Shown here: positions 28,401-64,000 of the stretch, in pieces
Position numbering within the stretch: the first letter of the stretch is position 1
Layout: each line of letters begins with the position of its first letter
NCBI GenBank assembly: GCA_021292105.1
Contig: CM037862.1
Span: forward strand, 1,930,501 to 1,994,500
Direction: 5' to 3'
Length of the DNA stretch: 64,000 nucleotides
DNA from: Anadara kagoshimensis
Taxonomy: Eukaryota; Mollusca; Bivalvia; Arcoida; Arcidae
Translations under genes and position numbers: made by a program
The notes under the pieces: generated by a model
Told to the model about the DNA's origin: nothing
Seen by the model: the letters and a program-made list of their open reading frames with translations, nothing else
The model's database searches: none

Positions 28401-31400
28401 TATAATGTTATTCTTACTGAAACTGTAAAATTTACCTCAAAGTTGGTTAACTGTTTTTTGAGAATCTTCTTCTCTTCAAGTTCTGTTTCAAGGCTTAAGT
28501 TAAGAGCTGAAATAATCAAAATTTTAAATTAATCAATTCAGAGGCCCAAAATACCCGGCGAGTTGTTTTATACAAGCTACTAACAAATAAATTGTTGATT
28601 TGGGGATATTGCATCCCTACGCTTATCAAGGCCATCAAAAAGTGTTATTGACTTCATCACAATGTTGTTGATAAGTATGATGCCTTTGTATCTAAAATTA
28701 CCCGTCCAATAGTTCCATGTTCCTTTTATTTTTAATTTTGATTATACACATGATGGATGTAGCTAGCTAAACAAGAGGTGCTTACCCTTCTGGAGCATCT
28801 GGCCTCACTTCCAGTTTTTAAAGATTATACTTTGCTTTGGCCTGGGAATTTGTCTATGGATTGGTATGTTTTACTCTGTTTTTGATTGCTAATCTGCAAA
28901 TGCACACTATCTGAATATCAAATAAATCTGAAATTATTCCAGTTTATAAGGACTTTACCATTAATTTCTTTATTTAAATCATCCACAGATACATCATGTT
29001 CTCCCACCTCACTGGTATCTATAAAATGAACATAAGAGACTGATTAAATAGCCATTATATCTAGTTGTTTTCAATCCAATTAATCAGGTTTTTTATAACT
29101 AGTAGTTGTGATCACTGTTATCAATCTAATACCAGTTTATGATTGTTCAAACATCTACATCTATAGTTGTATATGTCACTTATCATCTATTCAAATGACA
29201 TGAAATCAAATTCAATTCTAATTTATGCAAAGTTGCTTCCAGTGTTTTGCAATCTTTTCATCTCATTCACTCACTCACCCACTCAAACTCATTTGCTCAC
29301 TCACTCACTCACTTACACTTGCTCATACTCACATCATTCACCCTCTCACTCACTTACACTTGCTCACAATCACATCACTCACTCACTTACACTTGCATCA
29401 CTCATCCACTACCTCACTTGCACCTGGTCACACTCACTCACTCTCACCCACTCTCATTTGCTCACTCACTCACTTACAAGTACACTTGCTCACTCACTCA
29501 CTTACAAGTACACTTGCTCACTCACTCACTTACAAGTACACTTGCTCACTCACTCACTTACAAGTACACTTGCTCACTCACTCACTTACAAGTACACTTG
29601 CTCACTCATTCACTTACAAGTACACTTGCTCACTCATTCACTTACAAGTACACTTGCTCACTCACTCACTTACAAGTACACTTGCTCACTCACTCACTTA
29701 CAAGTACACTTGCTCACTCACTCACTTACAAGTACACTTGCTCACTCACTCACTTACAAGTACACTTGCTCACTCACTCACTTACAAGTACACTTGCTCA
29801 CTCACTCACTTACAAGTACACTTGCTCACTCACTCACTTACAAGTACACTTGCTCACTCACTCACTTACAAGTACACTTGCTCACTCATTCACTCACTTA
29901 CAAGTACACTTTCTCACTCACTCACACTTACAAGTACACTTGCTCACTCACTCACTTACAAGTACACTTGCTCACTCACTCACTTACAAGTACACTTGCT
30001 CACTCATTCACTCACTTACAAGTACACTTGCTCACTCACTCACTTACAAGTACACTTGCTCACTCACTCACTTACAAGTACACTTGCTCACTCACTCACT
30101 CACTTACAAGTACACTTGCTCACTCACTCACTTACAAGTACACTTGCTCACTCACTCACTTACAAGTACACTTGCTCACTCATTCACTCACTTACAAGTA
30201 CACTTGCTCACTCACTCACTTACAAGTACACTTGCTCACTCACTCACTTACAAGTACACTTGCTCACTCACTCACTTACAAGTACACTTGCTCACTCATT
30301 CACTCACTTACAAGTACACTTGCTCACTCACTCACTTACAAGTACACTTGCTCACTCACTCACTTACAAGTACACTTGCTCACTCACTCACTCACTTACA
30401 AGTACACTTGCTCACTCACTCACTTACAAGTACACTTGCTCACTCACTCACTCACTTACAAGTACACTTGCTCACTCACTCACTTACAAGTACACTTGCT
30501 CACTCACTCACTCACACTGCTTGCAAAAAGCAGACAGTAGGACTGGTATTAATGATAAGAGTCTATAAAACAAAGAGTTATCTACCTTGTTCTGATATAA
30601 AACTATCTTCATTATCAGCATTTAGTTCATCAGAACTGAAAATACATTATCATTACTCTGGTTAAACAGATTTACCCAACACAAAATACTCAATAATACC
30701 ACTATAGCAGATGAATGTAGTAACAAGTTATTTTGTTTTGTTGAGAAAATCACAAAAAACAAGTCAGAACTTGACAAATTTCATATCACTGAGAAACAGC
30801 AATCAACAAGATTTTATTTTTACATCTAAGAAAAATCTATGGTGAATGTTTTTTAAATGATTTCATATTATACTTTAAGTATAATGCCTTTATACTTGGG
30901 GAGGGGAGCTCAGTGACCAAATGGTCTAAATGCCTTTGTACTGGGGGTAAAAGGCTAAGTGGTCTGGTCTGAAATACCAGCTTATGTCAGTATGTATCAA
31001 AGCATCTCTCACTCTTTATGTTCAAAAGCCATCCAGACAGATCTTGAGGATGAAAGATTTATTTTATTTTGTTGCCAAATGTCTTTGGTTTTCTCTGGAT
31101 TCAATGGCTTACTCCATCTCAATACCGACTATCTCAATATAAATGAATGAAACATTACAAATCCACTACATTCCTTTATACATGTATGATATTTCTAATG
31201 ACTTTTTTAATTTCAACACTCTATAACATTTTTGCAGATTTACAAGTGAATTTATAATATACCTTTTATCTAAATGAGCTTCTTGTCCTGTTCTATGCTG
31301 ATGTTCTTTGTCAATTTTTTCTTGACAAGCTAAAATGATAAAATTAATAAAATATTCAAAATAGTAACTTCCTTAGTTTTAACACATTAGCGGATTTTTC

Positions 31401-34400
31401 ATAAAACTGGACTAACTTTTTCTCATGCATGCCACTCCCACCATAAAAAAAGAACTCTTTTTTCTCATGTCACACCAATCAAAAACAGAAATTTCATTTT
31501 CTCATGCCACACCCACCATAAAATGGGTATTTCTTGTTAAATATACATTACATGTTATAATTACCTGTTAAGTTTTTTTGTAAAGCTGTATTCTGTGCCT
31601 GTAACCTCCTAACTTCATCCTCTAACTGTGTATTAACTACAACAGACTCTACTGGTTTGTTATCTCCTAATTCTGATACCTGTTTTTCAAGTTCTTCATT
31701 TCTAGCCACCAGCTGTAATTAGTATACATGTACATGTACATCATAATATTTATTCCATGTTCTTAGTCTACATGCTTGTCAGGTCCAGGGCTTTTCCACT
31801 GTGGGCCAAAATCAGGTCTCATTCCCAATAGCAGAAATATGAATATATTCCAAATTTTTGAATTATTTTTCCAAACTACCTAGGTTCTATACTTTATACA
31901 GCTCATCCAAAATACTAGTACATGTATTAGTTCATATACACAGTATAAACATGATGTTTTCAATTATACTCTCTTATTTACAACTGGGATTATATAAATA
32001 TGCAATTCTTTATATAAAATATCTAAAATTTAATTTTCAAATTCTCAATTTGCATGGAAAAAGTCATGGTCCCGGCCACTTTTTCAAAAAGTCAGAAAAA
32101 GCCTTGAGGACACAGCTAACCCTAGTTTTATTGATGTGAAGAGAGAGTACAAAACTCGGCCCATTAATCTGTCAATCTCTATTTAAAATACCCAAAACAC
32201 TGCCCATTTCAAATTTTATTGAATAGAATATGACTAATAAAATTTGTTTCACATTTTTCGGTCCCTTGAAGTCTATTACCAGAACATTTTTACAATAAAG
32301 ATGTCGGAAAATTATGAAAACTAAATCTTAAGATATTTTCAAAACCTTCCTAACTTTGCAAGATGCTTAAAAGTTTGAATTCTCCTAGATTTGTTGATTG
32401 GTTGCTATGTATACCTAGGACTCAGATTTTACTTCCTTTTTGTTTCAAGTATGTTTTTATGTTAAAATAAAGTCTTCTTACCGTGGATAACTCCTGCATC
32501 AGTGTTTGATTCTGTAGTCTAAACTCATCTTCTTGACTTTGTAGTTTACGCTGAAGTCCATCATTTTCTTGAAATAATAACTCCAACTCCTACAAAATTA
32601 CCCAATAACAAAAACTGATGTAAATTCAGAAATGTTCATGTTCATTTTATTTTTGCTTAAATTTGCAAGTGTAAGAAACCATGAAAATAAGTCTTTCACG
32701 AACGTTTTATTTTGATCTAAATTCACCTTCATTTGCACTGGGTATCATCCAACAACCTAAAAATAATCGTACATGAATATCTTAAAATGACTATTTTGCC
32801 AGAATTAACTGATACAGAAATTTTATGATTTACAGTGCTATGTGTGATCTATAAAAAAGAACTACCATCTACCTTTACACACATGTGCTGCTTGGTGTCA
32901 AATCGTGGTTACATTGGTGATCAACAGGAGACTAAGAGAACAGACCTGTCGAAAGTTTAACAGTGAACTAACAAAAAGAATCAAAGTTAAAGCTCAGCTG
33001 CCTAGCGGCTGTAATATGGATATGTGGGTGAAAAGCTGCTGAGGCAGCTGTCGGAAAAACTGTCAAGATGTAGCTAACAAACGGCTGAATGAGCTGCCAA
33101 TGAACTTTTGTCTGTATTGATACTGTATCAACTTTATCAAATGAGCTGCCAATGAACTTTTGTCTGTATTGATACTGTATTAACTGTATCAAATGAGCTG
33201 CCAATGAACTTTTGTCTGTATTGATACTGTATTAACTGTATCAAATGAGCTGCCAATGAACTTTTGTCTGTATTGATACTGTATTAACTGTATCAAATGA
33301 GCTGCCCATGAACTTTTGTCTGTATTGATACTGTATTAACTGTATCAAATGAGCTGCCCATGAACTTTTGTCTGTACTGATACTGTATTAACTGTATCAA
33401 ATGAACTGCCAATGAACTTTTGTCTGTTCTGATACTGTATTAACTGTATCAAATGAACTGCCAATGAACTTTTGTCTGTATTGATACTGTATTAACTGTA
33501 TCAAATGAGCTGCCCATGAACTTTTGTCTGTATTGATACTGTATTAACTGTATCAAATGAGCTGCCCATGAACTTTTGTCTGTACTGATACTGTATTAAC
33601 TGTATCAAATGAACTGCCAATGAACTTTTGTCTGTTCTGATACTGTATTAACTGTATCAAATGAACTGCCAATGAACTTTTGTCTGTATTGATACTGTAT
33701 TAACTGTATCAAATGAGCTGCCCATGAACTTTTGTCTGTATTGATACTGTATTAACTGTATCAAATGAGCTGCCCATGAACTTTTGTCTGTATTGATACT
33801 GTATTAACTGTATCAAATGAGCAGCCCATGAACTTTTGTCTGTATTGATACTGTATTAACTGCATCAAATGAGCTGCCCATGAACTTTTGTCTGTATTGA
33901 TACTGTATTAACTGTATCAAATGAACTGCCAATGAACTTTTGTCTGTTCTGATACTGTATTAACTGTATCAAATGAGCTGCCCATGAACTTTTGTCTGTA
34001 TTGATACTGTATTAACTGTATCAAATGAGCTGCCCATGAACTTTTGTCTGTATTGATACTGTATTAACTGTATCAAATGAGCTGTCCATGAACTTTTGTC
34101 TGTATTGATACTGTATTAACTGTATCAAATGAGCAGCCCATGAACTTTTGTCTGTATTGATACTGTATTAACTGTATCAAATGAGCTGCCAATGAACTTT
34201 TGTCTGTATTGATACTGTATTAACTGTATCAAATGAGCTGCCCATGAACTTTTGTCTGTATTGATACTGTATTAACTGTATCAAATGAGCTGCCCATGAA
34301 CTTTTGTCTGTACTGATACTGTATTAACTGTATCAAATGAACTGCCAATGAACTTTTGTCTGTTCTGATACTGTATTAACTGTATCAAATGAACTGCCAA

Positions 34401-37400
34401 TGAACTTTTGTCTGTATTGATACTGTATTAACTGTATCAAATGAGCTGCCCATGAACTTTTGTCTGTATTGATACTGTATTAACTGTATCAAATGAGCTG
34501 CCCATGAACTTTTGTCTGTATTGATACTGTATTAACTGTATCAAATGAGCAGCCCATGAACTTTTGTCTGTATTGATACTGTATTAACTGCATCAAATGA
34601 GCTGCCCATGAACTTTTGTCTGTATTGATACTGTATTAACTGTATCAAATGAACTGCCAATGAACTTTTGTCTGTTCTGATACTGTATTAACTGTATCAA
34701 ATGAGCTGCCCATGAACTTTTGTCTGTATTGATACTGTATTAACTGTATCAAATGAGCTGCCCATGAACTTTTGTCTGTATTGATACTGTATTAACTGTA
34801 TCAAATGAGCTGCCCATGAACTTTTGTCTGTATTGATACTGTATTAACTGTATCAAATGAGCTGCCCATGAACTTTTGTCTGTATTGATACTGTATTAAC
34901 TGTATCAAATGAGCTGCCAATGAACTTTTGTCTGTATTGATACTGTATTAACTGTATCAAATGAGCTGCCCATGAACTTTTGTCTATATTGATACTGTAT
35001 TAACTGTATCAAATGAGCTGCCCATGAACTTTTGTCTGTATTGATACTGTATTAACTGTATCAAATGAGCTGCCCATGAACTTTTGTCTGTATTGATACT
35101 GTATTAACTGTATCAAATGAGCTGCCCATGAACTTTTGTCTGTATTGATACTGTATTAACTGCATCAAATGAGCTGCCAATGAACTTTTGTCTGTATTGA
35201 TACTGTATTAACTGTATCAAATGAGCTGCCAATGAACTTTTGTCTGTATTGATACTGTATTAACTGTATCAAATCAGCTGCCCATGAACTTTTGTCTGTA
35301 TTGATACTGTATTAACTGTATCAAATGAGCAGCCCATGAACTTTTGTCTGTATTGATACTGTATTAACTGCATCAAATGAGCTGCCCATGAACTTTTGTC
35401 TGTATTGATACTGTATTAACTGTATCAAATGAGCTGCCAATGAACTTTTGTCTGTATTGATACTGTATTAACTTTATCAAATGAGCTGCCAATGAACTTT
35501 TGTCTGTATTGATACTGTATTAACTGTATCAAATGAGCTGCCAATGAACTTTTGTCTGTATTGATACTGTATTAACTGTATCAAATGAGCTGCCAATGAA
35601 CTTTTGTCTGTATTGATACTGTATTAACTGTATCAAATGAACTGCCAATGAACTTTTGTCTGTTCTGATACTGTATTAACTGTATCAAATGAACTGCCAA
35701 TGAACTTTTGTCTGTATTGATACTGTATTAACTGTATCAAATGAGCTGCCCATGAACTTTTGTCTGTATTGATACTGTATTAACTTTATCAAATGAGCTG
35801 CCAATGAACTTTTGTCTGTATTGATACTGTATTAACTGTATCAAATGAGCTGCCAATTAACTTTTGTCTGTATTGATACTGTATTAACTGTATCAAATGA
35901 GCTGCCCATAAACTTTTGTCTGTACTGATACTGTATTAACTGTATCAAATGAACTGCCCATGAACTTTTGTCTGTTCTGATACTGTATTAACTGTATCAA
36001 ATGAGCTGCCCATGAACTTTTGTCTGTATTGATACTGTATTAACTGTATCAAATGAGCTGCCCATGAACTTTTGTCTGTATTGATACTCTATTAACTGTA
36101 TCAATTGAGCTGCCCATGAACTTTTGTCTGTATTGATACTGTATTAACTGTATCAAATGAGCTGCCCATGAACTTTTGTCTGTATTGATACTGTATTAAC
36201 TGCATTAAATGAGCTGCCCATGAACTTTTGTCTGTATTGATACTGTATTAACTGTATCAAATGAGCTGCCCATGAACTTTTGTCTGTACTGATACTGTAT
36301 TAACTGTATCAAATGAACTGCCAATGAACTTTTGTCTGTTCTGATACTGTATTAACTGTATCAAATGAGCTGCCCATGAACTTTTGTCTGTATTGATACT
36401 GTATTAACTGTATCAAATGAGCTGCCCATGAACTTTTGTCTGTATTGATACTGTATTAACTGTATCAAATGAGCTGCCCATGCACTTTTGTCTGTATTGA
36501 TACTGTATTAACTGTATCAAATGAGCTGCCCATGAACTTTTGTCTGTATTGATACTGTATTAACTGTATCAAATGAGCTGCCCATGAACTTTTGTCTGTA
36601 TTGATACTGTATTAACTGTATCAAATGAGCTGCCCATGAACTTTGTCTGTATTGATACTGTATTAACTGTATCAAATGAGCTGCCCATGAACTTTTGTCT
36701 GTATTGATACTGTATTAACTGTATCAAATGAGCTGCCCATGAACTTTTGTCTGTATTGATACTGTATTAACTGTATCAATGAGCTGCCAATGAACTTTTG
36801 TCTGTATTGATACTGTATTAACTGTATCAAATGAGCTGCCAATGAACTTTTGTCTGTATTGATACTGTATTAACTGTATCAAATGAGCTGCCCATGAACT
36901 TTTGTCTGTATTGATACTGTATTAACTGTATCAAATGAGCTGCCCATGAACTTTTGTCTGTACTGATACTGTATTAACTGTATCAAATGAACTGCCAATG
37001 AACTTTTGTCTGTTCTGATACTGTATTAACTGTATCAAATGAACTGCCAATGAACTTTTGTCTGTATTGATACTGTATTAACTGTATCAAATGAACTGCC
37101 CATGAACTTTTGTCTGTATTGATACTGTATTAACTGTATCAAATGAGCTGCCCATGAACTTTTGTCTGTATTGATACTGTATTAACTGTATCAAATGAGC
37201 TGCCCATGAACTTTTGTCTGTATTGATACTGTATTAACTGTATCAATGAGCTGCCCATGAACTTTTGTCTGTATTGATACTGTATTTACTGTATCAAATG
37301 AGCTGTCCATGAACTTTTGTCTGTATTGATACTGTATTAACTGTATCAATGAGCTGCCCATGAACTTTTGTCTGTATTGATACTGTATTTACTGTATCAA

Positions 37401-40400
37401 ATGAGCTGTCCATGAACTTTTGTCTGTATTGATACTGTATTAACTGTATCAAATGAGCAGCCCATGAACTTTTGTCTGTATTGATACTGTATTAACTGCA
37501 TCAAATGAGCTGCCCATGAACTTTTGTCTGTATTGATACTGTATTAACTGTATCAAATGATGCCCATAAACTTTTGTCTGTACTGATACTGTATTAACTG
37601 TATCAAATGAACTGCCCATGAACTTTTGTCTGTTCTGATACTGTATAACTGTATCAAATGAGCTGCCCATGAACTTTTGTCTGTATTGATACTGTATTAA
37701 CTGTATCAAATGAGCTGCCCATGAACTTTTGTCTGTATTGATACTGTATTAACTGTATCAAATGAGCTGCCCATGAACTTTTGTCTGTATTGATACTGTA
37801 TTAATTGTATCAAATGAGCTGCCCATGAACTTTTGTCTGTATTGATACTGTATTAACTGTATCAAATGAGCTGCCATGAACTTTTGTCTGTATTGATACT
37901 GTATTAACTGTATCAAATGAGCTGCCATGAACTTTTGTCTGTATTGATACTGTATTAACTGTATCAAATGAGCTGCCCATGAACTTTTGTCTGTATTGAT
38001 ACTGTATTAACTGTATCAAATGAGCTGCCCATGAACTTTTGTCTGTATTGATACTGTATTTACTGTATCAAATGAGCTGCCCATGAACTTTTGTCTGTAT
38101 TGATACTGTATTAACTTTATCAAATGAGCTGCCAATGAACTTTTGTCTGTATTGATACTGTATTAACTGTATCAAATGAGCTGCCAATTAACTTTTGTCT
38201 GTATTGATACTGTATTAACTGTATCAAATTGAGCTGCCCATAAACTTTTGTCTGTACTGATACTGTATTAACTGTATCAAATGAACTGCCCATGAACTTT
38301 TGTCTGTTCTGATACTGTATTAACTGTATCAAATGAGCTGCCCATGAACTTTTGTCTGTATTGATACTGTATTAACTGTATCAATGAGCTGCCCATGAAC
38401 TTTTGTCTGTATTGATACTCTATTAACTGTATCAATTGAGCTGCCCATGAACTTTTGTCTGTATTGATACTGTATTAACTGTATCAAATGAGCTGCCCAT
38501 GAACTTTTGTCTGTATTGATACTGTATTAACTGCATTAAATGAGCTGCCCATGAACTTTTGTCTGTATTGATACTGTATTAACTGTATCAAATGAGCTGC
38601 CCATGAACTTTTGTCTGTACTGATACTGTATTAACTGTATCAAATGAGCTGCCCATGAACTTTTGTCTGTACTGATACTGTATTAACTGTATCAAATGAG
38701 CTGCCAATGAACTTTTGTCTGTTCTGATACTGTATTAACTGTATCAAATGAGCTGCCCATGAACTTTTGTCTGTATTGATACTGTATTAACTGTATCAAA
38801 TGAGCTGCCCATGAACTTTTGTCTGTATTGATACTGTATTAACTGTATCAAATGAGCTGCCCATGCACTTTTGTCTGTATTGATACTGTATTAACTGTAT
38901 CAAATGAGCTGCCCTGAACTTTTGTCTGTATTGATACTGTATTAACTGTATCAAATGAGCTGCCCATGAACTTTTGTCTGTATTGATACTGTATTAACTG
39001 TATCAAATGAGCTGCCCATGAACTTTTGTCTGTATTGATACTGTATTACTGTATCAAATGAGCTGCCCATGAACTTTTGTCTGTATTGATACTGTATTAA
39101 CTGTATCAAATGAGCTGCCCATGAACTTTTGTCTGTATTGATACTGTATTAACTGTATCAATGAGCTGCCCATGAACTTTTGTCTGTATTGATACTGTAT
39201 TAACTGTATCAAATGAGCTGCCAATGAACTTTTGTCTGTATTGATACTGTATTAACTGTATCAAATGAGCTGCCCATGAACTTTTGTATGTATTGATACT
39301 GTATTAACTGTATCAAATGAGCTGCCCATGAACTTTTGTCTGTACTGATACTGTATTAACTGTATCAAATGAACTGCCAATGAACTTTTGTCTGTTCTGA
39401 TACTGTATTAACTGTATCAAATGAACTGCCAATGAACTTTTGTCTGTATTGATACTGTATTAACTGTATCAAATGAACTGCCCATGAACTTTGTCTGTAT
39501 TGATACTGTATTAACTGTATCAATGAGCTGCCCATGAACTTTTGTCTATATTGATACTGTATTAACTGTATCAAATGAGCTGCCCATGAACTTTTGTCTG
39601 TATTGATACTGTATTAACTGTATCAAATGAGCTGCCATGAACTTTTGTCTGTATTGATACTGTATTTACTGTATCAAATGAGCTGTCCATGAACTTTTGT
39701 CTGTATTGATACTGTATTAACTGTATCAAAATGAGCTGCCCATGAACTTTTGTCTGTATTGATACTGTATTTACTGTATCAATGAGCTGTCCATGAACTT
39801 TGTCTGTATTGATACTGTATTAACTGTATCAAATGAGCAGCCCATGAACTTTTGTCTGTATTGATACTGTATTAACTGCATCAAATGAGCTGCCCATGAA
39901 CTTTTGTCTGTATTGATACTGTATTAACTGTATCAAATGAGCTGCCCATAACTTTTGTCTGTACTGATACTGTATTAACTGTATCAAATGACTGCCCATG
40001 AACTTTTGTCTGTTCTGATACTGTATTAACTGTATCAAATGAGCTGCCCATGAACTTTTGTCTGTATTGATACTGTATTAACTGTATCAAATGAGCTGCC
40101 CATGAACTTTTGTCTGTATTGATACTGTATTAACTGTATCAAATGAGCTGCCCATGAACTTTTGTCTGTATTGATACTGTATTAATTGTATCAAATGAGC
40201 TGCCCATGAACTTTTGTCTGTATTGATACTGTATTAACTGTATCAAATGAGCTGCCCATGAACTTTTGTCTGTATTGATACTGTATTAACTGTATCAAAT
40301 GAGCTGCCCATGAACTTTTGTCTGTATTGATACTGTATTAACTGTATCAATGAGCTGCCCATGAACTTTTGTCTGTATTGATACTGTATTAAGTATCAAA

Positions 40401-43400
40401 TGAGCTGCCCATGAACTTTTGTCTGTATTGATACTGTATTACTGTATCAAATGAGCTGCCCATGAACTTTTGTCTGTATTGATACTGTATTAACTGTATC
40501 AAATGAGCTGCCCATGAACTTTGTCTGTATTGATACTGTATTAACTGTATCAAATGAGCAGCCATGAACTTTTGTCTGTATTGATACTGTATTAACTGTA
40601 TCAAATGAGCAGCCCATGAACTTTTGTCTGTATTGATACTGTATTAACTGTATCAAATGAGCTGTCCTGACTTTTTGTCTGTATTGATACTGTATTAACT
40701 GTATCAAATGAGCTGCCAATGAACTTTTGTCTGTATTGATACTGTATTAACTGTATCAAATGAGCTGCCAATGACTTTTGTCTGTATTGATACTGTATTA
40801 ACTGTATCAATGAGCTGCCCATGAACTTTTGTCTGTATTGATACTGTATTAACTGTATCAAAGGAGCTGCCATGAACTTTTGTCTGTATTGATACTGTAT
40901 TAACTGTATCAAATGAGCTGCCCATGAATTTTTGTCTGTATTGATACTGTATTAACTGTATCAAATGAGCTGCCAATCAACTTTTGTCTGTACTGATACT
41001 GTATTAACTGTATCAAATGAGCTGCCCATGAACTTTTGTCTGTATTGATACTGTATTAACTGTATCAAATGAGCTGCCAATCAACTTTTGTCTGTACTGA
41101 TACTGTATTAACGTATCAAATGAGACTGTTGTCATACAACAGCACTGACGTGGCAACAGTAGGAAAGAAAAAGTTGGACCACCAAAGATAACTTGGGGAA
41201 TGGAGAACATGGACGACCAAGAAGAAAGATCACAACTGGACTGGGCAGTTGGGCATCAGCAGGATGGCACAGGACAGACAAACAGAGATGGTGTATCTGG
41301 ACTTTATGTGACAGCAGACACAAAGAGGATAGATGAAGTGAGTATAACATCTATTTCAGGCTCATGAGGTTTACCTGCTATATGTTTATATGTATACTAA
41401 TAAGCTAGTGTACACTTGTGTTATTATCATACAATTTATATATACCACTGTGATACTCAGTTGGTAGTGTGCTTGCTTCTGTAAGTGGGAGTCGTGAGTT
41501 TAAACCCCAACCGTCTGACCCAGATTATATATACCACTGCGGTAGCTCAGTTGTAGAGTGCTCGCTCTGTATGTGGGAGGTCGTAGGTTCTCACCCCGAC
41601 CAGGTCTGACCCAAGACTTGAAATTGGGTAGTGACTGTTCTTTCACCAAGCACTCAAAATTACAAATAAGTTAAGAGTTCTTTCTGATTGGAACTTGAAT
41701 AAACGAGGTCTTGTGTCATGGTAGGCATGGATCAATATAAAACGCTGATGTATGATGCCATCAGCGCAACGCACAGGCAAATATTTCTGCACCTTGGCCT
41801 ATAGCTGGCGACGTCTGGATATAAGTGAAATACTCTTGGATGTTAAATACCATTTCTCAACTTAATACAAATTATACAAACCTGAGCCTTTTACTTTTCT
41901 GAATCGCCTGAAAAATAGTAATTTATTCATCTTAATAAAATGAATAATATAGTAATAAAACAGTAATCCCCAAATCTAGGGCAGAGAGAATAGGATGGGG
42001 TGGGGTAAAATAGTGTTCAGTTTTTAGTCAGATTATTCATTTATCAAGATTGTTCTAAATGGTGGAGAAACTGAAGAAACCAAAGGAAAAATATAATGTG
42101 TTTCAGAGAAAGCAAGCCGATGATCTCAAGAACAGATTGAAGTTATAAGTTTTATACCCAGTCAAGATAAATATTTAACTTATATTGAGGCAGTTAGTTC
42201 TGATATGGTGGAAAAAATTAGAGTGTCAAGAGAAAACCACAACCTATGGAAAGTGAACTGACAAACTTTCACACCAGGATCTTTGCAGGATTCAAACCTA
42301 GGCAGTGAGAAGTGCTGTGGTCTGTAAGTGGATAATATAGACCACTCAGCCAGTAAACCTCCCCCTCATATATCTTAGTTTTGTAAGGTTTCCATGACAA
42401 TCATGAATGAGTACCAGAGCTTCTATTTACATGTAACAATAGATATTGCTACAGGTTAAGTCTCAACATTTAAAATACAGTACTACTAAACAACTGCACC
42501 CACAGGACCTAAGTATATGGACACTACTGACAGGTGTATTTATTTAGAGATTCATGCTAGTGTATTATGAAGCACTATGAAACTCAAGACACTGGTATTA
42601 ATGAACAGTTGGTTTAATATATAAAATCTCTTTTGGTTGATGTATAAAAAAGAGACATTAAACAATGATCTTAATCATGTTGTGTGGAAGCGTGTGGCCT
42701 AGTGGTTAAGGTGTTGGACTTATGATTCGAAGGTCGTGGGTTCAATCCCTGGACCGGGCGATGTGTTGTGTCCTGAGCAAGACACTTAATTTCACGTTGT
42801 TCAGTTCACTCAGCTGAAAAATAAACGAGTACCAGCAAATGCTGGGGGTTAACCCTGCGATGGACCGGCGTCCCATTCAGGGAGAGTCTTGTACTCTCAG
42901 TCGCTTAACGCCACCGAAACCGGATAAGCTCCGGCCTGATGGCCTAATGGCTCGGACAGACTTTAAACTACTTTAACTTAATCATGTTAATGGGCAGTCC
43001 TTATATATCAGGTTTTACTATAATTTTATCATGACACTGGAAGACCATCAAATGTTATTTTAAACATATATACCTTATTTGCTTTTTGTAAATCCTTTTT
43101 CTACAGATTCAGACTTTTCTTTCCACAAAGATATTTCTAAAACAAAAAGAAGATACAAGTTAAATGTATTCTGTTTATCAATGATTAAGATGATGTTAAG
43201 TTACTTCCATCAAACAAAAAAAAAAGACAGGTACTGTGCTAGTTTATAAAATCTAACTTAACAGTTACAGGCATGTAACTTGACAATAAAAATTTAAGTT
43301 ATTTTACTTGGGTATGTTTTAACACATAATTTGAAAGAGCAAATCAAAACAAGTAATTGGCTTTGTATGGTGACATTTTTATTGTCAAACTTTGTATGGT

Positions 43401-49191: not shown

Positions 49192-49230
<39 letters not shown>

Positions 49231-49252
49231 ATAGATAAATAAATAAACGAAT
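49191..49252 (-). repeat. (TTTA)n microsatellite, right arm
   Basis: Mirror of the left tract with the same single interrupted unit. Confidence 0.95.
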
Positions 49253-50771: not shown

Positions 50772-50833
50772 AAATATCTTTGTGGAAAGAAAAGTCTGAA
50801 TCTGTAGAAAAGGATTTACAAAAAGCAAATAAG
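50772..50833 (+). CDS. GRIPAP1: Mirror of exon e2, intact
   Basis: 62 bp. With the last G of e1 it gives [20 protein letters not shown] and a final K. Confidence 0.85.
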
Positions 50834-50919
50834 GTATATATGTTTTAAAATAACATTTGATGGTCTTCCAGTGTCATGATAAAATTATAGTAAAACCTGA
50901 TATATAAGGACTGCCCATT

Positions 50920-51245
50920 AACATGATTAAGTTAAAGTTAGTTAAAGTCTGTTCCGAGCCATTAGGCCCATCAGGCCGGAGCTTATCCCGGTTTCGGTGG
51001 CGTTAAGCGACTGAGAGTACAAGACTCTCCCCTGAATGGGACGCCGGTCCATCGCAGGGTTAACCCCCAGCATTTTGCTGGTACTCGTTTATTTTTCAGC
51101 TGAGTGAACTGGAACAACGTGAAATTAAGTGTCTTGCTCAAGGACACAACACATCGCCCGGTCCAGGGATTGAACCCACGACCTTCGAATCATAAGTCCA
51201 ACACCTTAACCACTAGGCCACACGCTTCCACACAACATGATTAAG
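50920..51245 (-). mobile_element. tRNA-derived SINE (family A), right arm
   Basis: Mirror of 42670-42988, flanked by the same duplication (AACATGATTAAG) on both sides. Confidence 0.85.
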
Positions 51246-51544
51246 ATCATTGTTTTAATGTCTCTTTTTTATACATCAACCAAAAGAGATTTTATATATT
51301 AACCAACTGTTCATTAATACCAGTGTCTTGAGTTTCATAGTGCTTCATAATACACTAGCATGAATCTCTAAATAAATACCACCTGTCAGTAGTGTCCATA
51401 TTACTTAGGTCCTGTGGGTGCAGTTGTTTAGTAGTACTGGTATTTTAAATGTTGAGACTTCACCTGTAGCAATATCTATTGTTACATGTAAATAGAAGCT
51501 CTGGTACTCATTCATGATTGTCATTGGAAACCTTACAAACTAAG

Positions 51545-51780
51545 ATATATGAGGGGGAGGTTTACTGGCTGAGTGGTCTATATTATCCACTTACAGACCA
51601 CAGCACTTCTCACTGCCTAGGTTTGAATCCTGCAAAGATCCTGGTGTGAAAGTTTGTCAGTTCACTTTCCATAGGTTGGTGGTTTTTCTCTTGACACTCT
51701 AATTTTTTTCCACCATATCAGAACTAACTGCCTCAATATAAGTTAAATATTATCTTGACTGGGGTATAAAACCTTATAAC
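51545..51780 (+). mobile_element. tRNA-like SINE (family C), right arm
   Basis: Mirror of 42130-42365. Confidence 0.65.
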
Positions 51781-52019
51781 TTCAATCTGTTCTTGAGATC
51801 ATCGGCTTGCTTTCTCTGAAACACATTATATTTTTCCTTTGGTTTCTTCAGTTTCTCCACCATTTAGAACAATCTTGATATAAATGAATAATCCTGACTA
51901 AACTGAACACTATTTTACCCCACCCCATCCTATTCTCTCTTGCCCTAGATTTGGGGATTTACTGTTTTTATTACTATATTAATTCATTTTATTAAGATGA
52001 ATAAATTACTATTTTTCAG

Positions 52020-52046
52020 GCGATTCAGAAAAGTAAAAAGGCTCAG
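52020..52046 (+). CDS. GRIPAP1: Mirror of exon e3, intact
   Basis: 27 bp micro-exon AIQKSKKAQ between TTTCAG and GTTTGT. Confidence 0.85.
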
Positions 52047-52075
52047 GTTTGTATAAATTTGTATTAAGTTGAGAA

Positions 52076-52492
52076 ATGGTATTTAACATCCAAGAGTATT
52101 TCACTTATATCCAGACGTCGCCAGCTATAGGCCAAGGTGCAGAAATATTTGCCTGTGCGTTGCGCTGATGGCATCATACATCAGCGTTTTATATTGATCC
52201 ATGCCTACCATGACACAAGACCTCGTTTATTTCAAGTTCCAATCAGAAAGAACTCTTAACTTTCATTTGTAATTTTGAGTGCTTGGTGAAAGAACAGTCA
52301 CTACCCAATTTCAAGTCTTGGGTCAGACCTGGTCGGGGTGAGAACCTACGACCTCCCACATACAGAGCGAGCACTCTACCAACTGAGCTACCGCAGTGGT
52401 ATATATAATCTGGGTCAGACCTGGTTGGGGTTTAAACTCACGACCTCCCACTTACAGAGCAAGCACACTACCAACTGAGGTATCACAGTGGT
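52076..52492 (-). mobile_element. tRNA-derived SINE (family B) with double head, right arm
   Basis: Mirror of 41451-41865; box A read as CTCAGTTGGTAGAGTGCTCG on the minus strand. Confidence 0.8.
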
Positions 52493-52564
52493 ATATATAA
52501 ATTTGTATGATAATAACACAAGTGTACACTAGCTTATTAGTATACATATAAACATATAGCAGGT

Positions 52565-52822
52565 ACAACCTCATGAGCCTGAAATAGATGTTATACTCAC
52601 TTCATCTATCCTCTTTGTGTCTGCTGTCACATAAGGTCCAGATACACCATCTCTGTGTTTGTCTGTCCTTGGTTGCCATCCTTGCTGATGCCCAACTGCT
52701 CCAGTCCAGTTGTGATCTTTCTTCTTTGGTCGTCCATGTTCTCCATTCCCCAAGTTATCTTTGGTGGTCCAACTTTTCTCTTTCCTACTGGTTGCCACGT
52801 CAGTGCTGTTGTATGACAACAG
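52565..52822 (-). mobile_element. LINE reverse-transcriptase C-terminal remnant, right arm
   Basis: Mirror of the left remnant but better preserved: WASARMATKDRQTQRWCIW then [11 protein letters not shown] and stop at 52592-52594. GRPKKK lies upstream in another frame. Confidence 0.65.
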
Positions 52823-55800
52823 TCTCATTTGATACAGTTAATACAGTATCAGTACAGACAAAAGTTGATTGGCAGCTCATTTGATACAGTTAATACAGTA
52901 TCAATACAGACAAAAGTTCATGGGCAGCTCATTTGATACAGTTAATACAGTATCAGTACAGACAAAAGTTGATTGGCAGCTCATTTGATACAGTTAATAC
53001 AGTATCAATACAGACAAAAATTCATGGGCAGCTCATTTGATACAGTTAATACAGTATCAATACAGACAAAAGTTCATTGGCAGCTCCTTTGATACAGTTA
53101 ATACAGTATCAATACAGACAAAAGTTCATGGGCAGCTCATTTGATACAGTTAATACAGTATCAATACAGACAAAAGTTCATTGGCAGCTCATTTGATACA
53201 GTTAATACAGTATCAATACAGACAAAAGTTCATTGGCAGCTCATTTGATACAGTTAATACAGTATCAATACAGACAAAAGTTCATGGACAGCTCATTTGA
53301 TACAGTTAATACAGTATCAATACAGACAAAAGTTCATGGGCTGCTCATTTGATACAGTTAATACAGTATCAATACAGACAAAAGTTCATGGGCTGCTCAT
53401 TTGATACAGTTAATACAGTATCAATACAGACAAAAGTTCATGGGCAGCTCATTTGATACAGTTAATACAGTATCAATACAGACAAAAGTTCATGGGCAGC
53501 TCATTTGATACAGTAAATACAGTATCAATACAGACAAAAGTTCATGGGCAGCTCATTTGATACAGTTAATACAGTATCAATACAGACAAAAGTTCATGGG
53601 CAGCTCATTTGATACAGTTAATACAGTATCAATACAGACAAAAGTTCATGGGCAGCTCATTTGATACAGTTAATACAGTATCAATACAGACAAAAGTTCA
53701 TGGGCAGCTCATTTGATACAGTTAATACAGTATCAATACAGACAAAAGTTCATGGGCAGCTCATTTGATACAATTAATACAGTATCAATACAGACAAAAG
53801 TTCATGGGCAGCTCATTTGATACAGTTAATACAGTATCAATACAGACAAAAGTTCATGGGCAGCTCATTTGATACAGTTAATACAGTATCAATACAGACA
53901 AAAGTTCATGGGCAGCTCATTTGATACAGTTAATACAGTATCAGAACAGACAAAAGTTCATGGGCAGTTCATTTGATACAGTTAATACAGTATCAGTACA
54001 GACAAAAGTTTATGGGCAGCTCATTTGATACAGTTAATACAGTATCAATACAGACAAAAGTTCATGGGCAGCTCATTTGATGCAGTTAATACAGTATCAA
54101 TACAGACAAAAGTTCATGGGCTGCTCATTTGATACAGTTAATACAGTATCAATACAGACAAAAGTTCATGGACAGCTCATTTGATACAGTAAATACAGTA
54201 TCAATACAGACAAAAGTTCATGGGCAGCTCATTTGATACAGTTAATACAGTATCAATACAGACAAAAGTTCATGGACAGCTCATTTGATACAGTAAATAC
54301 AGTATCAATACAGACAAAAGTTCATGGGCAGCTCATTTGATACAGTTAATACAGTATCAATACAGACAAAAGTTCATGGGCAGCTCATTTGATACAGTTA
54401 ATACAGTATCAATATAGACAAAAGTTCATGGGCAGCTCATTTGATACAGTTAATACAGTATCAATACAGACAAAAGTTCATGGGCAGTTCATTTGATACA
54501 GTTAATACAGTATCAATACAGACAAAAGTTCATTGGCAGTTCATTTGATACAGTTAATACAGTATCAGAACAGACAAAAGTTCATTGGCAGTTCATTTGA
54601 TACAGTTAATACAGTATCAGTACAGACAAAGTTCATGGGCAGCTCATTTGATACAGTTAATACAGTATCAATACAGACAAAAGTTCATGGCAGCTCATTT
54701 GATACAGTTAATACAGTATCAATACAGACAAAAGTTCATTGGCAGCTCATTTGATACAGTTAATACAGTATCAATACAGACAAAAGTTCATGGGCAGCTC
54801 ATTGATACAGTTAATACAGTATCAATACAGACAAAAGTTCATGGGCAGCTCATTTGATACAGTTAATACAGTATCAATACAGACAAAAGTTCATGGGCAG
54901 CTCATTTGATACAGTTAATACAGTATCAATACAGACAAAAGTTCATGGGCAGCTCATTTGATACAGTTAATACAGTATCAATACAGACAAAAGTTCATGG
55001 GCAGCTCATTTGATACAGTTAATACAGTATCAATACAGACAAAAGTTCATGGGCAGCTCATTTGATACAGTTAATACAGTATCAATACAGACAAAAGTGC
55101 ATGGGCAGCTCATTTGATACAGTTAATACAGTATCAATACAGACAAAAGTTCATGGGCAGCTCATTTGATACAGTTAATACAGTATCAATACAGACAAAA
55201 GTTCATGGGCAGCTCATTTGATACAGTTAATACAGTATCAGAACAGACAAAAGTTCATTGGCAGCTCATTTGATACAGTTAATACAGTATCAGTACAGAC
55301 AAAAGTTCATGGGCAGCTCATTTGATACAGTTAATACAGTATCAGTACAGACAAAAGTTCATGGGCAGCTCATTTGATACAGTTAATACAGTATCAATAC
55401 AGACAAAAGTTCATGGGCAGCTCATTTAATGCAGTTAATACAGTATCAATACAGACAAAAGTTCATGGGCAGCTCATTTGATACAGTTAATACAGTATCA
55501 ATACAGACAAAGTTCATGGGCAGCTCAATTGATACAGTTAATAGAGTATCAATACAGACAAAAGTTCATGGGCAGCTCATTTGATACAGTTAATACAGTA
55601 TCAATACAGACAAAAGTTCATGGGCAGCTCATTTGATACAGTTAATACAGTATCAGAACAGACAAAAGTTCATGGGCAGTTCATTTGATACAGTTAATAC
55701 AGTATCAGTACAGACAAAAGTTTATGGGCAGCTCATTTGATACAGTTAATACAGTATCAATACAGACAAAAGTTAATTGGCAGCTCATTTGATACAGTTA

Positions 55801-58800
55801 ATACAGTATCAATACAGACAAAAGTTCATTGGCAGCTCATTTGATAAAGTTAATACAGTATCAATACAGACAAAAGTTCATGGGCAGCTCATTTGATACA
55901 GTAAATACAGTATCAATACAGACAAAAGTTCATGGGCAGCTCATTTGATACAGTTAATACAGTATCAATACAGACAAAAGTTCATGGGCAGCTCATTTGA
56001 TACAGTTAATACAGTATCAATACAGACAAAAGTTCATGGGCAGCTCATTTGATACAGTTAATACAGTATCAATACAGACAAAAGTTCATGGGCAGCTCAT
56101 TTGATACAGTTAATACAGTATCAATACAGACAAAAGTTCATGGGCAGCTCATTTGATACAATTAATACAGTATCAATACAGACAAAAGTTCATGGGCAGC
56201 TCATTTGATACAGTTAATACAGTATCAATACAGACAAAAGTTCATGGGCAGCTCATTTGATACAGTTAATACAGTATCAATACAGACAAAAGTTCATGGG
56301 CAGCTCATTTGATACAGTTAATACAGTATCAGAACAGACAAAAGTTCATGGGCAGTTCATTTGATACAGTTAATACAGTATCAGTACAGACAAAAGTTTA
56401 TGGGCAGCTCATTTGATACAGTTAATACAGTATCAATACAGACAAAAGTTCATGGGCAGCTCATTTGATGCAGTTAATACAGTATCAATACAGACAAAAG
56501 TTCATGGGCTGCTCATTTGATACAGTTAATACAGTATCAATACAGACAAAAGTTCATGGACAGCTCATTTGATACAGTAAATACAGTATCAATACAGACA
56601 AAAGTTCATGGGCAGCTCATTTGATACAGTTAATACAGTATCAATACAGACAAAAGTTCATGGACAGCTCATTTGATACAGTAAATACAGTATCAATACA
56701 GACAAAAGTTCATGGGCAGCTCATTTGATACAGTTAATACAGTATCAATACAGACAAAAGTTCATGGGCAGCTCATTTGATACAGTTAATACAGTATCAA
56801 TACAGACAAAAGTTCATGGGCAGCTCATTTGATACAGTTAATACAGTATCAATACAGACAAAAGTTCATGGGCAGTTCATTGATACAGTTAATACAGTAT
56901 CAATACAGACAAAAGTTCATTGGCAGTTCATTTGATACAGTTAATACAGTATCAGAACAGACAAAAGTTCATTGGCAGTTCATTTGATACAGTTAATACA
57001 GTATCAGTACAGACAAAAGTTCATGGGCAGCTCATTTGATACAGTTAATACAGTATCAATACAGACAAAAGTTCATGGGCAGCTCATTTGATACAGTTAA
57101 TACAGTATCAATACAGACAAAAGTTCATTGGCAGCTCATTTGATACAGTTAATACAGTATCAATACAGACAAAAGTTCATTGGCAGCTCATTGATACAGT
57201 TAATACAGTATCAATACAGACAAAAGTTCATGGGCAGCTCATTTGATACAGTTAATACAGTATCAATACAGACAAAAGTTCATGGGCAGCTCATTTGATA
57301 CAGTTAATACAGTATCAATACAGACAAAAGTTCATGGGCAGCTCATTTGATACAGTTAATACAGTATCAATACAGACAAAAGTTCATGGGCAGCTCATTT
57401 GATACAGTTAATACAGTATCAATACAGACAAAAGTTCATGGGCAGCTCATTTGATACAGTTAATACAGTATCAATACAGACAAAAGTGCATGGGCAGCTC
57501 ATTTGATACAGTTAATACAGTATCAATACAGACAAAAGTTCATGGGCAGCTCATTTGATACAGTTAATACAGTATCAATACAGACAAAAGTTCATGGGCA
57601 GCTCATTTGATACAGTTAATACAGTATCAGAACAGACAAAAGTTCATTGGCAGTTCATTTGATACAGTTAATACAGTATCAGTACAGACAAAAGTTCATG
57701 GGCAGCTCATTTGATACAGTTAATACAGTATCAATACAGACAAAAGTTCATGGGCAGCTCATTTAATGCAGTTAATACAGTATCAATACAGACAAAAGTT
57801 CATGGGCAGCTCATTTGATACAGTTAATACAGTATCAATACAGACAAAAGTTCATGGGCAGCTCAATTGATACAGTTAATAGAGTATCAATACAGACAAA
57901 AGTTCATGGGCAGCTCATTTGATACAGTTAATACAGTATCAATACAGACAAAAGTTCATGGGCAGCTCATTTGATACAGTTAATACAGTATCAGAACAGA
58001 CAAAAGTTCATGGGCAGTTCATTTGATACAGTTAATACAGTATCAGTACAGACAAAAGTTTATGGGCAGCTCATTTGATACAGTTAATACAGTATCAATA
58101 CAGACAAAAGTTAATTGGCAGCTCATTTGATACAGTTAATACAGTATCAATACAGACAAAAGTTCATTGGCAGCTCATTTGATAAAGTTAATACAGTATC
58201 AATACAGACAAAAGTTCATGGGCAGCTCATTTGATACAGTTAATACAGTATCAATACAGACAAAAGTTCATTGGCAGTTCATTTGATACAGTTAATACAG
58301 TATCAGAACAGACAAAAGTTCATTGGCAGTTCATTTGATACAGTTAATACAGTATCAATACAGACAAAAGTTCATTGGCAGCTCATTTGATACAGTTAAT
58401 ACAGTATCAATACAGACAAAAGTTCATTGGCAGCTCATTTGATACAGTTAATACAGTATCAATACAGACAAAAGTTCATTGGCAGCTCATTTGATAAAGT
58501 TAATACAGTATCAATACAGACAAAAGTTCATTGGCAGCTCATTTGATACAGTTAATACAGTATCAATACAGACAAAAGTTCATGGGCAGCTCATTTGATG
58601 CAGTTAATACAGTATCAATACAGACAAAAGTTCATGGGCTGCTCATTTGATACAGTTAATACAGTATCAATACAGACAAAAGTTCATGGGCAGCTGATTT
58701 GATACAGTTAATACAGTATCAATACAGACAAAAGTTCATTGGCAGCTCATTTGATACAGTTAATACAGTATCAATACAGACAAAAGTTCATTGGCAGCTC

Positions 58801-60881
58801 ATTTGATGCAGTTAATACAGTATCAATACAGACAAAAGTTCATGGGCAGCTCATTTGATACAGTTAATACAGTATCAATACAGACAAAAGTTCATGGGCA
58901 GCTCATTTGATACAGTTAATACAGTATCAATACAGACAAAAGTTCATGGGCAGCTCATTTGATACAGTTAATACAGTATCAATATAGACAAAAGTTCATG
59001 GGCAGCTCATTTGATACAGTTAATACAGTATCAATACAGACAAAAGTTCATTGGCAGCTCATTTGATACAGTTAATACAGTATCAATACAGACAAAAGTT
59101 CATGGGCAGCTCATTTGATACAGTTAATACAGTATCAATACAGACAAAAGTTCATGGGCAGCTCATTTGATACAGTTAATACAGTATCAATACAGACAAA
59201 AGTTCATGGGCAGCTCATTTGATACAGTTAATACAGTATCAATACAGACAAAAGTTCATGGGCAGCTCATTTGATACAGTTAATACAGTATCAGAACAGA
59301 CAAAAGTTCATTGGCAGTTCATTTGATACAGTTAATACAGTATCAATACAGACAAAAGTTCATGGGCAGCTCATTTGATGCAGTTAATACAGTATCAATA
59401 CAGACAAAAGTTCATGGGCTGCTCATTTGATACAGTTAATACAGTATCAATACAGACAAAAGTTCATGGGCAGCTCATTTGATACAGTTAATACAGTATC
59501 AATACAGACAAAAGTTCATGGGCAGCTCATTTGATACAGTTAATACAGTATCAATACAGACAAAAGTTCATTGGCAGTTCATTTGATACAGTTAATACAG
59601 TATCAGAACAGACAAAAGTTCATTGGCAGTTCATTTGATACAGTTAATACAGTATCAGTACAGACAAAAGTTCATGGGCAGCTCATTTGATACAGTTAAT
59701 ACAGTATCAATACAGACAAAAGTTCATGGGCAGCTCATTTGATACAGTTAATACAGTATCAATACAGACAAAAGTTCATTGGCAGCTCATTTGATACAGT
59801 TAATACAGTATCAATACAGACAAAAGTTCATGGGCTGCTCATTTGATACAGTTAATACAGTATCAATACAGACAAAAGTTCATGGACAGCTCATTTGATA
59901 CAGTTAATACAGTATCAATACAGACAAAAGTTCATGGGCAGCTCATTTGATACAGTTAATACAGTATCAATACAGACAAAAGTTCATGGCAGCTCATTTG
60001 ATACAGTTAATACAGTATCAGAACAGACAAAAGTTCATTGGCAGTTCATTTGATACAGTTAATACAGTATCAATACAGACAAAAGTTCATGGGCAGCTCA
60101 TTTGATGCAGTTAATACAGTATCAATACAGACAAAAGTTCATGGGCTGCTCATTTGATACAGTTAATACAGTATCAATACAGACAAAAGTTCATGGGCAG
60201 CTCATTTGATACAGTTAATACAGTATCAATACAGACAAAAGTTCATGGGCAGCTCATTTGATACAGTTAATACAGTATCAATACAGACAAAAGTTCATTG
60301 GCAGTTCATTTGATACAGTTAATACAGTATCAGAACAGACAAAAGTTCATTGGCAGTTCATTTGATACAGTTAATACAGTATCAGTACAGACAAAAGTTC
60401 ATGGGCAGCTCATTTGATACAGTTAATACAGTATCAATACAGACAAAAGTTCATGGGCAGCTCATTTGATACAGTTAATACAGTATCAATACAGACAAAA
60501 GTTCATTGGCAGTTCATTTGATACAGTTAATACAGTATCAGAACAGACAAAAGTTCATTGGCAGTTCATTTGATACAGTTAATACAGTATCAGTACAGAC
60601 AAAAGTTCATGGGCAGCTCATTTGATACAGTTAATACAGTATCAATACAGACAAAAGTTCATGGGCAGCTCATTTGATACAGTTAATACAGTATCAATAC
60701 AGACAAAAGTTCATTGGCAGCTCATTTGATACAGTTAATACAGTATCAATACAGACAAAAGTTCATTGGCAGCTCATTTGATACAGTTAATACAGTATCA
60801 ATACAGACAAAAGTTCATTGGCAGCTCATTTGATAAGTTGATACAGTATCAATACAGACAAAAGTTCATTGGCAGCTCATT
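52823..60881 (-). repeat. 52-bp satellite array, right arm (about 155 units)
   Basis: Reverse complement of the left array, about 8,059 bp against 8,037 bp, with the same variant order and fewer single-base deletions. Near-identical length is unusual for two independent satellite arrays. Confidence 0.97.
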
Positions 60882-61379
60882 CAGCCGTTTGTTAGCTACA
60901 TCTTGACAGTTTTTCCGACAGCTGCCTCAGCAGCTTTTCACCCACATATCCATATTACAGCCGCTAGGCAGCTGAGCTTTAACTTTGATTCTTTTTGTTA
61001 GTTCACTGTTAAACTTTCGACAGGTCTGTTCTCTTAGTCTCCTGTTGATCACCAATGTAACCACGATTTGACACCAAGCAGCACATGTGTGTAAAGGTAG
61101 ATGGTAGTTCTTTTTTATAGATCACACATAGCACTGTAAATCATAAAATTTCTGTATCAGTTAATTCTGGCAAAATAGTCATTTTAAGATATTCATGTAC
61201 GATTATTTTTAGGTTGTTGGATGATACCCAGTGCAAATGAAGGTGAATTTAGATCAAAATAAAACGTTCGTGAAAGACTTATTTTCATGGTTTCTTACAC
61301 TTGCAAATTTAAGCAAAAATAAAATGAACATGAACATTTCTGAATTTACATCAGTTTTTGTTATTGGGTAATTTTGTAG

Positions 61380-61486
61380 GAGTTGGAGTTATTATTTCAA
61401 GAAAATGATGGACTTCAGCGTAAACTACAAAGTCAAGAAGATGAGTTAGACTACAGAATCAAACACTGATGCAGGAGTTATCCACG
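61380..61486 (+). CDS. GRIPAP1: Mirror of exon e4, frameshifted
   Basis: 107 bp against 108 in the left arm; one T is lost from a TTT run after GATGAG. Confidence 0.85.
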
Positions 61487-62254
61487 GTAAGAAGACTTTA
61501 TTTTAACATAAAAACATACTTGAAACAAAAAGGAAGTAAAATCTGAGTCCTAGGTATACATAGCAACCAATCAACAAATCTAGGAGAATTCAAACTTTTA
61601 AGCATCTTGCAAAGTTAGGAAGGTTTTGAAAATATCTTAAGATTTAGTTTTCATAATTTTCCGACATCTTTATTGTAAAAAGTTCTGGTAATAGACTTCA
61701 AGGGACCGAAAAATGTGAAACAAATTTTATTAGTCATATTCTATTCAATAAAATTTGAAATGGGCAGTGTTTTGGGTATTTTAAATAGAGATTGACAGAT
61801 TAATGGGCCGAGTTTTGTACTCTCTCTTCACATCAATAAAACTAGGGTTAGCTGTGTCCTCAAGGCTTTTTCTGACTTTTTGAAAAAGTGGCCGGGACCA
61901 TGACTTTTTCCATGCAAATTGAGAATTTGAAAATTAAATTTTAGATATTTTATATAAAGAATTGCATATTTATATAATCCCAGTTGTAAATAAGAGAGTA
62001 TAATTGAAAACATCATGTTTATACTGTGTATATGAACTAATACATGTACTAGTATTTTGGATGAGCTGTATAAAGTATAGAACCTAGGTAGTTTGGAAAA
62101 ATAATTCAAAAATTTGGAATATATTCATATTTCTGCTATTGGGAATGAGACCTGATTTTGGCCCACAGTGGAAAAGCCCTGGACCTGACAAGCATGTAGA
62201 CTAAGAACATGGAATAAATATTATGATGTACATGTACATGTATACTAATTACAG

Positions 62255-62401
62255 CTGGTGGCTAGAAATGAAGAACTTGAAAAAAGGTATCAGAATTAGG
62301 AGATAACAAACCAGTAGAGTCTGTTGTAGTTAATACACAGTTAGAGGATGAAGTTAGGAGGTTACAGGCACAGAATACAGCTTTACAAAAAAACTTAACA
62401 G
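62255..62401 (+). CDS. GRIPAP1: Mirror of exon e5, frameshifted
   Basis: 147 bp against 148; GAAAAACAGG has become GAAAAAAGG, removing a base and the Q codon. Confidence 0.85.
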
Positions 62402-62636
62402 GTAATTATAACATGTAATGTATATTTAACAAGAAATACCCATTTTATGGTGGGTGTGGCATGAGAAAATGAAATTTCTGTTTTTGATTGGTGTGACATG
62501 AGAAAAAAGAGTTCTTTTTTTATGGTGGGAGTGGCATGCATGAGAAAAAGTTAGTCCAGTTTTATGAAAAATCCGCTAATGTGTTAAAACTAAGGAAGTT
62601 ACTATTTTGAATATTTTATTAATTTTATCATTTTAG

Positions 62637-62703
62637 CTTGTCAAGAAAAAATTGACAAAGAACATCAGCATAGAACAGGACAAGAAGCTCATTTAGATAA
62701 AAG
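62637..62703 (+). CDS. GRIPAP1: Mirror of exon e6, intact
   Basis: 67 bp, identical to the left-arm exon by eye. Confidence 0.85.
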
Positions 62704-62815
62704 GTATATTATAAATTCACTTGTAAATCTGCAAAAATGTTATAGAGTGTTGAAATTAAAAAAGTCATTAGAAATATCATACATGTATAAAGGAATGTAG
62801 TGGATTTGTAATGTT

Positions 62816-63070
62816 TCATTCATTTATATTGAGATAGTCGGTATTGAGATGGAGTAAGCCATTGAATCCAGAGAAAACCAAAGACATTTGGCAACAAAAT
62901 AAAATAAATCTTTCATCCTCAAGATCTGTCTGGATGGCTTTTGAACATAAAGAGTGAGAGATGCTTTGATACATACTGACATAAGCTGGTATTTCAGACC
63001 AGACCACTTAGCCTTTTACCCCCAGTACAAAGGCATTTAGACCATTTGGTCACTGAGCTCCCCTCCCCAA
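62816..63070 (-). mobile_element. SINE-like element, right arm
   Basis: Mirror of 30895-31150. Confidence 0.5.
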
Positions 63071-63328
63071 GTATAAAGGCATTATACTTAAAGTATAATA
63101 TGAAATCATTTAAAAAACATTCACCATAGATTTTTCTTAGATGTAAAAATAAAATCTTGTTGATTGCTGTTTCTCAGTGATATGAAATTTGTCAAGTTCT
63201 GACTTGTTTTTGTGATTTTCTCAACAAAACAAAATAACTTGTTACTACATTCATCTGCTATAGTGGTATTATTGAGTATTTTGTGTTGGGTAAATCTGTT
63301 AACCAGAGTAATGATAATGTATTTTCAG

Positions 63329-63378
63329 TTCTGATGAACTAAATGCTGATAATGAAGATAGTTTTATATCAGAACAAG
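63329..63378 (+). CDS. GRIPAP1: Mirror of exon e7, intact
   Basis: 50 bp, identical to the left-arm exon by eye. Confidence 0.85.
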
Positions 63379-63447
63379 GTAGATAACTCTTTGTTTTATA
63401 GACTCTTATCATTAATACCAGTCCTACTGTCTGCTTTTTGCAAGCAG

Positions 63448-64000
63448 TGTGAGTGAGTGAGTGAGCAAGTGTACTTGTAAGTGAGTGAGTGAGCAAGTGT
63501 ACTTGTAAGTGAGTGAGTGAGTGAGCAAGTGTACTTGTAAGTGAGTGAGTGAGCAAGTGTACTTGTAAGTGAGTGAGTGAGTGAGCAAGTGTACTTGTAA
63601 GTGAGTGAGTGAGCAAGTGTACTTGTAAGTGAGTGAGTGAGCAAGTGTACTTGTAAGTGAGTGAATGAGTGAGCAAGTGTACTTGTAAGTGAGTGAGTGA
63701 GCAAGTGTACTTGTAAGTGAGTGAGTGAGCAAGTGTACTTGTAAGTGAGTGAGTGAGCAAGTGTACTTGTAAGTGAGTGAATGAGTGAGCAAGTGTACTT
63801 GTAAGTGAGTGAGTGAGCAAGTGTACTTGTAAGTGAGTGAGTGAGCAAGTGTACTTGTAAGTGAGTGAGTGAGTGAGCAAGTGTACTTGTAAGTGAGTGA
63901 GTGAGCAAGTGTACTTGTAAGTGAGTGAGTGAGCAAGTGTACTTGTAAGTGAGTGAATGAGTGAGCAAGTGTACTTGTAAGTGAGTGAGTGAGCAAGTGT
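63448..64000 (-). repeat. 28-bp minisatellite, right arm, cut by window end
   Basis: Reverse complement of the left array, same order of 28- and 32-bp units as far as visible; continues past the window. Confidence 0.95.

Follow-up and report, generated by a model that had tools for sequence, protein, structure and literature searches.

The window analysed here is a stretch of 64,000 nt from Anadara kagoshimensis (GCA_021292105.1, contig CM037862.1, 1,930,501-1,994,500, forward strand), which holds a GRIPAP1-like gene, several tandem arrays and a very long inverted repeat (Table 1). A human GRIPAP1 sequence served as a probe; its matches (best E 4e-14) are minus-strand exons, largely collinear with it, between ~11.1 kb and the palindrome. 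None of five exon pieces scored above the Pfam cutoff, so the gene name depends on this probe.

Compared with itself, the window has one dominant inverted match, 29964-46879 against 64000-46981, which spans 17,063 columns at 98.6% identity. It shares 28,333 inverted 25-mers with itself, as against 0 in each of three base shuffles, and 0 are found when the stretch 1-29963 is taken alone. Long and nearly exact inverted arms thus surround a single axis, and the palindrome of at least 34 kb described in the initial annotation is borne out by both comparisons. The limits given there, 29966-64000, enclose a true mirror but do not mark its outer end: the right arm is still mirrored at the window's final base (64000), so 29964 is no more than the reflection of that point, and the palindrome may extend further. 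The mirrored content comprises a 52-bp satellite, a 28-bp minisatellite, part of a second array, a tRNA-like dimer and four recognised exons; at its outer end, the second array is mirrored for the part that lies within the window on both sides. Seven mirrored exons had been counted, whereas we recognise four, one of these only weakly. The two copies of the 52-bp satellite are indeed of near-equal length (8,037 bp in the left arm and 8,058 bp in the right) and keep the same order of unit variants, since aligning them in register leaves 3 substituted bases and shifting one copy by a single unit gives 226 mismatches.

Table 1. Features of the palindrome, in coordinates of the window.
Feature	Position	Strand	Remarks
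Left arm, outer zone	29964-46366	+	Differs from right arm only in indels and 10 substitutions; sound over 29964-36599, rich in deletions over 41125-46366
GRIPAP1-like exon, human residues ~102-151	31569-31715	-	Frame intact; right-arm copy 62240-62400 broken
GRIPAP1-like exon, human residues ~67-101	32485-32589	-	Frame intact; right-arm copy 61380-61486 broken
52-bp satellite, left copy	33088-41124	+	155 units; served to assign errors to arms
28-bp minisatellite, left copy	43361-44473	+	~2.5-3.6 kb from axis
Native inverted repeat, left copy	46319-46879	+	Two ~204-bp tandem units and a tail; ~8% unlike right copy from 46367 inward
Spacer at axis	46880-46980	.	~100 bp
Native inverted repeat, right copy	46981-47557	-	Change from diverged to identical at or outside 47509
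Right arm, outer zone	47510-64000	-	Mirror of left arm, running off window end; fewer errors near axis than left arm
GRIPAP1-like exon, human residues ~16-41	49108-49185	+	Frame intact; left copy within 44715-44800 broken
28-bp minisatellite, right copy	49426-50543	-	
Weakly matched exon piece, human residues ~58-67 (E 0.78)	52017-52046	+	Frame intact; left copy within 41860-41935 broken
52-bp satellite, right copy	52824-60881	-	Variant order as in left copy

A correction to the initial annotation concerns the centre: the outer arms are near-identical, but the innermost ~0.5 kb is different in kind. Over the outer 16.4 kb (29964-46366), the alignment of the arms contains 155 indels, 130 of them in homopolymers, as against 10 substitutions, and the gaps fall 118 times in the left arm and 37 times in the right. 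The inner zone (46367-46879) has 43 substitutions and 13 indels in 513 bp, a divergence of ~8%. This density of substitutions marks the core as an older, diverged inverted repeat, lying around the spacer, with the near-identical arms beginning in its outer part. Folded as DNA, the stretch 46500-47380 forms a strong hairpin with a predicted energy of -314 kcal/mol, whereas 20 shuffles average -75. Homology between the repeat units begins at 46319, and the outermost 48 bp of the repeat are identical between its copies, a run with a chance of 0.015 at the mean divergence. This edge hints at a switch inside the repeat, but it is only suggestive, since divergence is uneven and the diverged zone itself holds an identical stretch of 42 bp (46665-46706). 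The two ~204-bp tandem units on each side (46319-46717 and 47150-47557) are 84-87% alike.

Within the tandem arrays, the other units show which arm departs from the norm at each difference, so the errors can be assigned to an arm. Among 55 differences in the two arrays, 48 are departures of the left arm and 6 of the right, with one tie (48 against 6, p 3e-9), with five of the 55 assignments resting on counts of 3 or fewer. The arms therefore differ in the manner of sequencing errors rather than alleles, 54 of the 55 differences being assignable to an error in one arm. In the 28-bp array near the axis, 17 of 18 differences are left-arm errors and 1 is a right-arm error (p 1.4e-4). Even when the gap itself lies in the right arm (14 array differences), the left arm is at fault in 7 and the right in 6, with 1 tie, so some of the right-arm gaps are left-arm insertions. 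Six of the 10 substituted bases lie within differences assigned to left-arm error, and the other four lie outside the arrays, where no assignment can be made. The indel percentages that TRF reports for the 52-bp array round to 0 in both arms and say nothing about quality.

The errors also form a gradient. Left-arm gaps rise from 0 per kb at 29964-36599 to 5.97 at 36600-41124 and 17.36 at 41125-46366, and the right-arm gaps opposite the same three bins come to 1.05, 1.33 and 4.58 per kb. In the innermost of these bins, the single-base deletions of the left arm fall on A 42 times and on T 11 times (p 1e-5), the bin having 353 A runs and 366 T runs, and the right-arm gaps show no strand bias there (A 7, T 11). 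The left-arm deletions of G and C in that bin (20 against 9) are not unusual given the numbers of runs (p 0.45), and strand bias is absent from the satellite part (purine 14, pyrimidine 11). This partial bias may mean that few reads, all from a single strand, stand behind the inner left arm.

The exon frames carry a complementary record. Every one of the four recognised exons has lost its frame in just one of its two copies: for the outer pair this is the right-arm copy and for the inner pair the left-arm copy, so that in neither arm are all four intact together. The native inverted repeat sits 5' of these exons. Between the axis and the first of them, neither translation with motif inspection nor a scan for an ATG plus a donor revealed a convincing first exon; the scan, which assumed a phase-0 donor and easily misses a short exon, gave five candidates in the right arm and three in the left, none like the expected start. 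If the first exon lies beyond the repeat, the palindrome would have replaced the true 5' end of the gene, a reading that is suggestive only.

We favour the interpretation that the 34-kb mirror is a technical product, formed when sequencing or assembly turned round at the native hairpin, and most likely not part of a real chromosome; we put its probability at roughly 0.86, which falls short of proof. The initial annotation had leaned the same way on the grounds of homopolymer indels, and their predominance over substitutions in the outer arms supports it, as do, further, the consensus of the arrays, the exon frames, the strand bias and the one-sided error gradient. Two features had escaped the initial annotation: the axis lies within a native inverted repeat that is ~8% diverged, and each arm has a good half and a bad half. 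The position of the axis inside that repeat explains why the turn occurred where it did. As to the second feature, the many reads expected to cross a real axis should leave both of its sides equally good, so the unequal sides count against a real palindrome.

The real locus would on this interpretation contain a natural hairpin-forming inverted repeat, with two ~0.5-kb copies ~8% different from each other around the ~100-bp spacer. A library strand may have folded back on this repeat and then been copied or ligated, or the assembler may have turned round on it; in either case, the sequence of one side would now be followed by its own reverse complement, and the genuine continuation past the repeat would have been lost. 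During polishing, reads anchored in the unique left flank would have corrected the outer left arm, and reads passing through the repeat and spacer would have corrected the inner right arm, leaving the inner left arm rich in deletions. The mirror, the diverged core, the one-sided errors with their strand bias and the complementary frameshifts are direct observations, and the fold-back event, this course of polishing and the choice of the true join are inferred. Of the two routes, we prefer a fold-back molecule or read, which we consider somewhat better than an even bet; a pure turn by the assembler is possible but rather unlikely.

A toy model of read placement illustrates what such histories would leave behind. 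It is not fitted to the data, and assumes a mean read length of 12 kb, a given depth and 2% draft deletions. A real palindrome gives a modelled depth of 38.6 on the left and 40.6 on the right in the first kilobase beside the axis, and a false palindrome with its true join in the right arm gives 4.3 on the left and 28.0 on the right at the axis, and 27.0 and 0.0 outermost. With the opposite true join, the false palindrome gives 26.5 and 0.0. The direction of the observed gradient is that of the false palindrome with its true join in the right arm, but its size does not fit. The outer right arm (57330-64000) has ~1 gap per kb, against 17 in the inner left arm, and is cleaner than read placement alone predicts. 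Since it is clean despite the few reads expected there, a second cause is needed for the poor state of the inner left arm.

The strongest alternative is a real and very recent inverted duplication in the sequenced animal, whether germline, heterozygous or somatic, that arose at the native repeat through fold-back synthesis or replication template switching. Its expected geometry is the same as that seen here, with a native inverted repeat at the centre and exact arms outside it, and a very young event would show no substitutions; in vivo routes of this kind have been published (PMC10766183, PMC10164571, PMC7999016). However, reads that span the axis would support its left and right sides alike, and the errors near it are very unequal: judged indirectly through the 17 left-arm and 1 right-arm errors of the 28-bp array, support on the two sides is not equal. 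Exons are moreover broken in both arms in a complementary pattern, and the lack of a convincing first exon on the axis side of the first recognised exon, which may mean that the gene is cut, counts weakly in the same direction. We consider such a duplication unlikely. Were the palindrome of more than 34 kb nonetheless a product of fold-back at the native hairpin in the animal or in its recent ancestry, it would have left a GRIPAP1-like copy severed from its 5' end, and reading of a single strand would have to have degraded one arm, which is equally improbable.

Much less probable still is an old palindrome whose arms have been homogenised by gene conversion, with the inner ~0.5 kb escaping. 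Arms that have diverged little around a centre that has diverged more are what it would produce, but the step from ~8% to near-zero substitutions is abrupt and falls within a discrete repeat, and the differences between the arms behave as errors rather than variants, with exon frames broken in both. We reject it, as the scattered arm-specific substitutions of an old palindrome are not found: 10 bases in 16.4 kb differ, six of them assigned to left-arm error. Two sequencing adapters have no match within 46801-47060 (best ungapped identity 0.44 and 0.57), and the axis falls in a genomic spacer flanked by the two copies of a diverged inverted repeat. A missed adapter, retained within a PacBio subread or a nanopore two-strand read so that the whole passed for a single read, is therefore rejected as scarcely credible, although it is given as a known source of palindromic reads in PMC6218980.

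The technical reading has several parallels. Passages of PMC12870357 and PMC13141652 describe fold-back (inverted chimeric) artefact reads in nanopore and PacBio libraries, which, according to the former, entangle assembly graphs and produce spurious structural variants. The palindrome resembles the reads described in those passages in being a near-perfect mirror of the locus with no adapter at the axis, but differs from them in that its axis falls within a native inverted repeat that has diverged and that the product stands in assembled sequence rather than in a single read. Whole-genome amplification also yields palindromic fragments, according to PMC6218980 and PMC13265396, and there too inverted artefacts have reached assemblies, with the inverted duplications of a gorilla Y assembly judged to be artefacts; this parallel would apply only if the Anadara DNA had been amplified. 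PMC7229812 reports that the accuracy of nanopore base-calling drops after an inverted junction, with bases missed, which recalls the deletion-rich arm beside the axis here. The inverted duplications studied in that paper are real, and such duplications show this loss too, one read at a time; post-junction base loss may have contributed to the poor inner left arm if the reads were nanopore reads. Inverted duplications that form in vivo at inverted repeats (PMC10766183, PMC10164571, PMC7999016) share the central inverted repeat and the long mirrored arms, but here the distribution of errors next to the axis argues against a population of crossing reads.

As biology, the palindrome most likely means nothing. 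Annotators should not take it for a duplicated gene, and should look elsewhere in the assembly for the gene's true 5' part. The value of the case is in its method: tandem arrays and exon frames within the arms reveal from sequence alone which arm bears each error, and an unequal error load beside the axis is the mark of a doubtful palindrome.

Two further repeats in the window deserve description. The tRNA-like dimer of ~89 bp, at 41436-41613 and 52319-52500, has, by eye, stretches resembling the box A and box B of a tRNA and is SINE-like; ARAGORN called no tRNA gene there, and tRNA and Rfam scans found nothing. Outside the palindrome, the 3' half of the GRIPAP1-like gene contains a 64-bp tandem array at 13926-15262, with 21 copies that are 97% alike.
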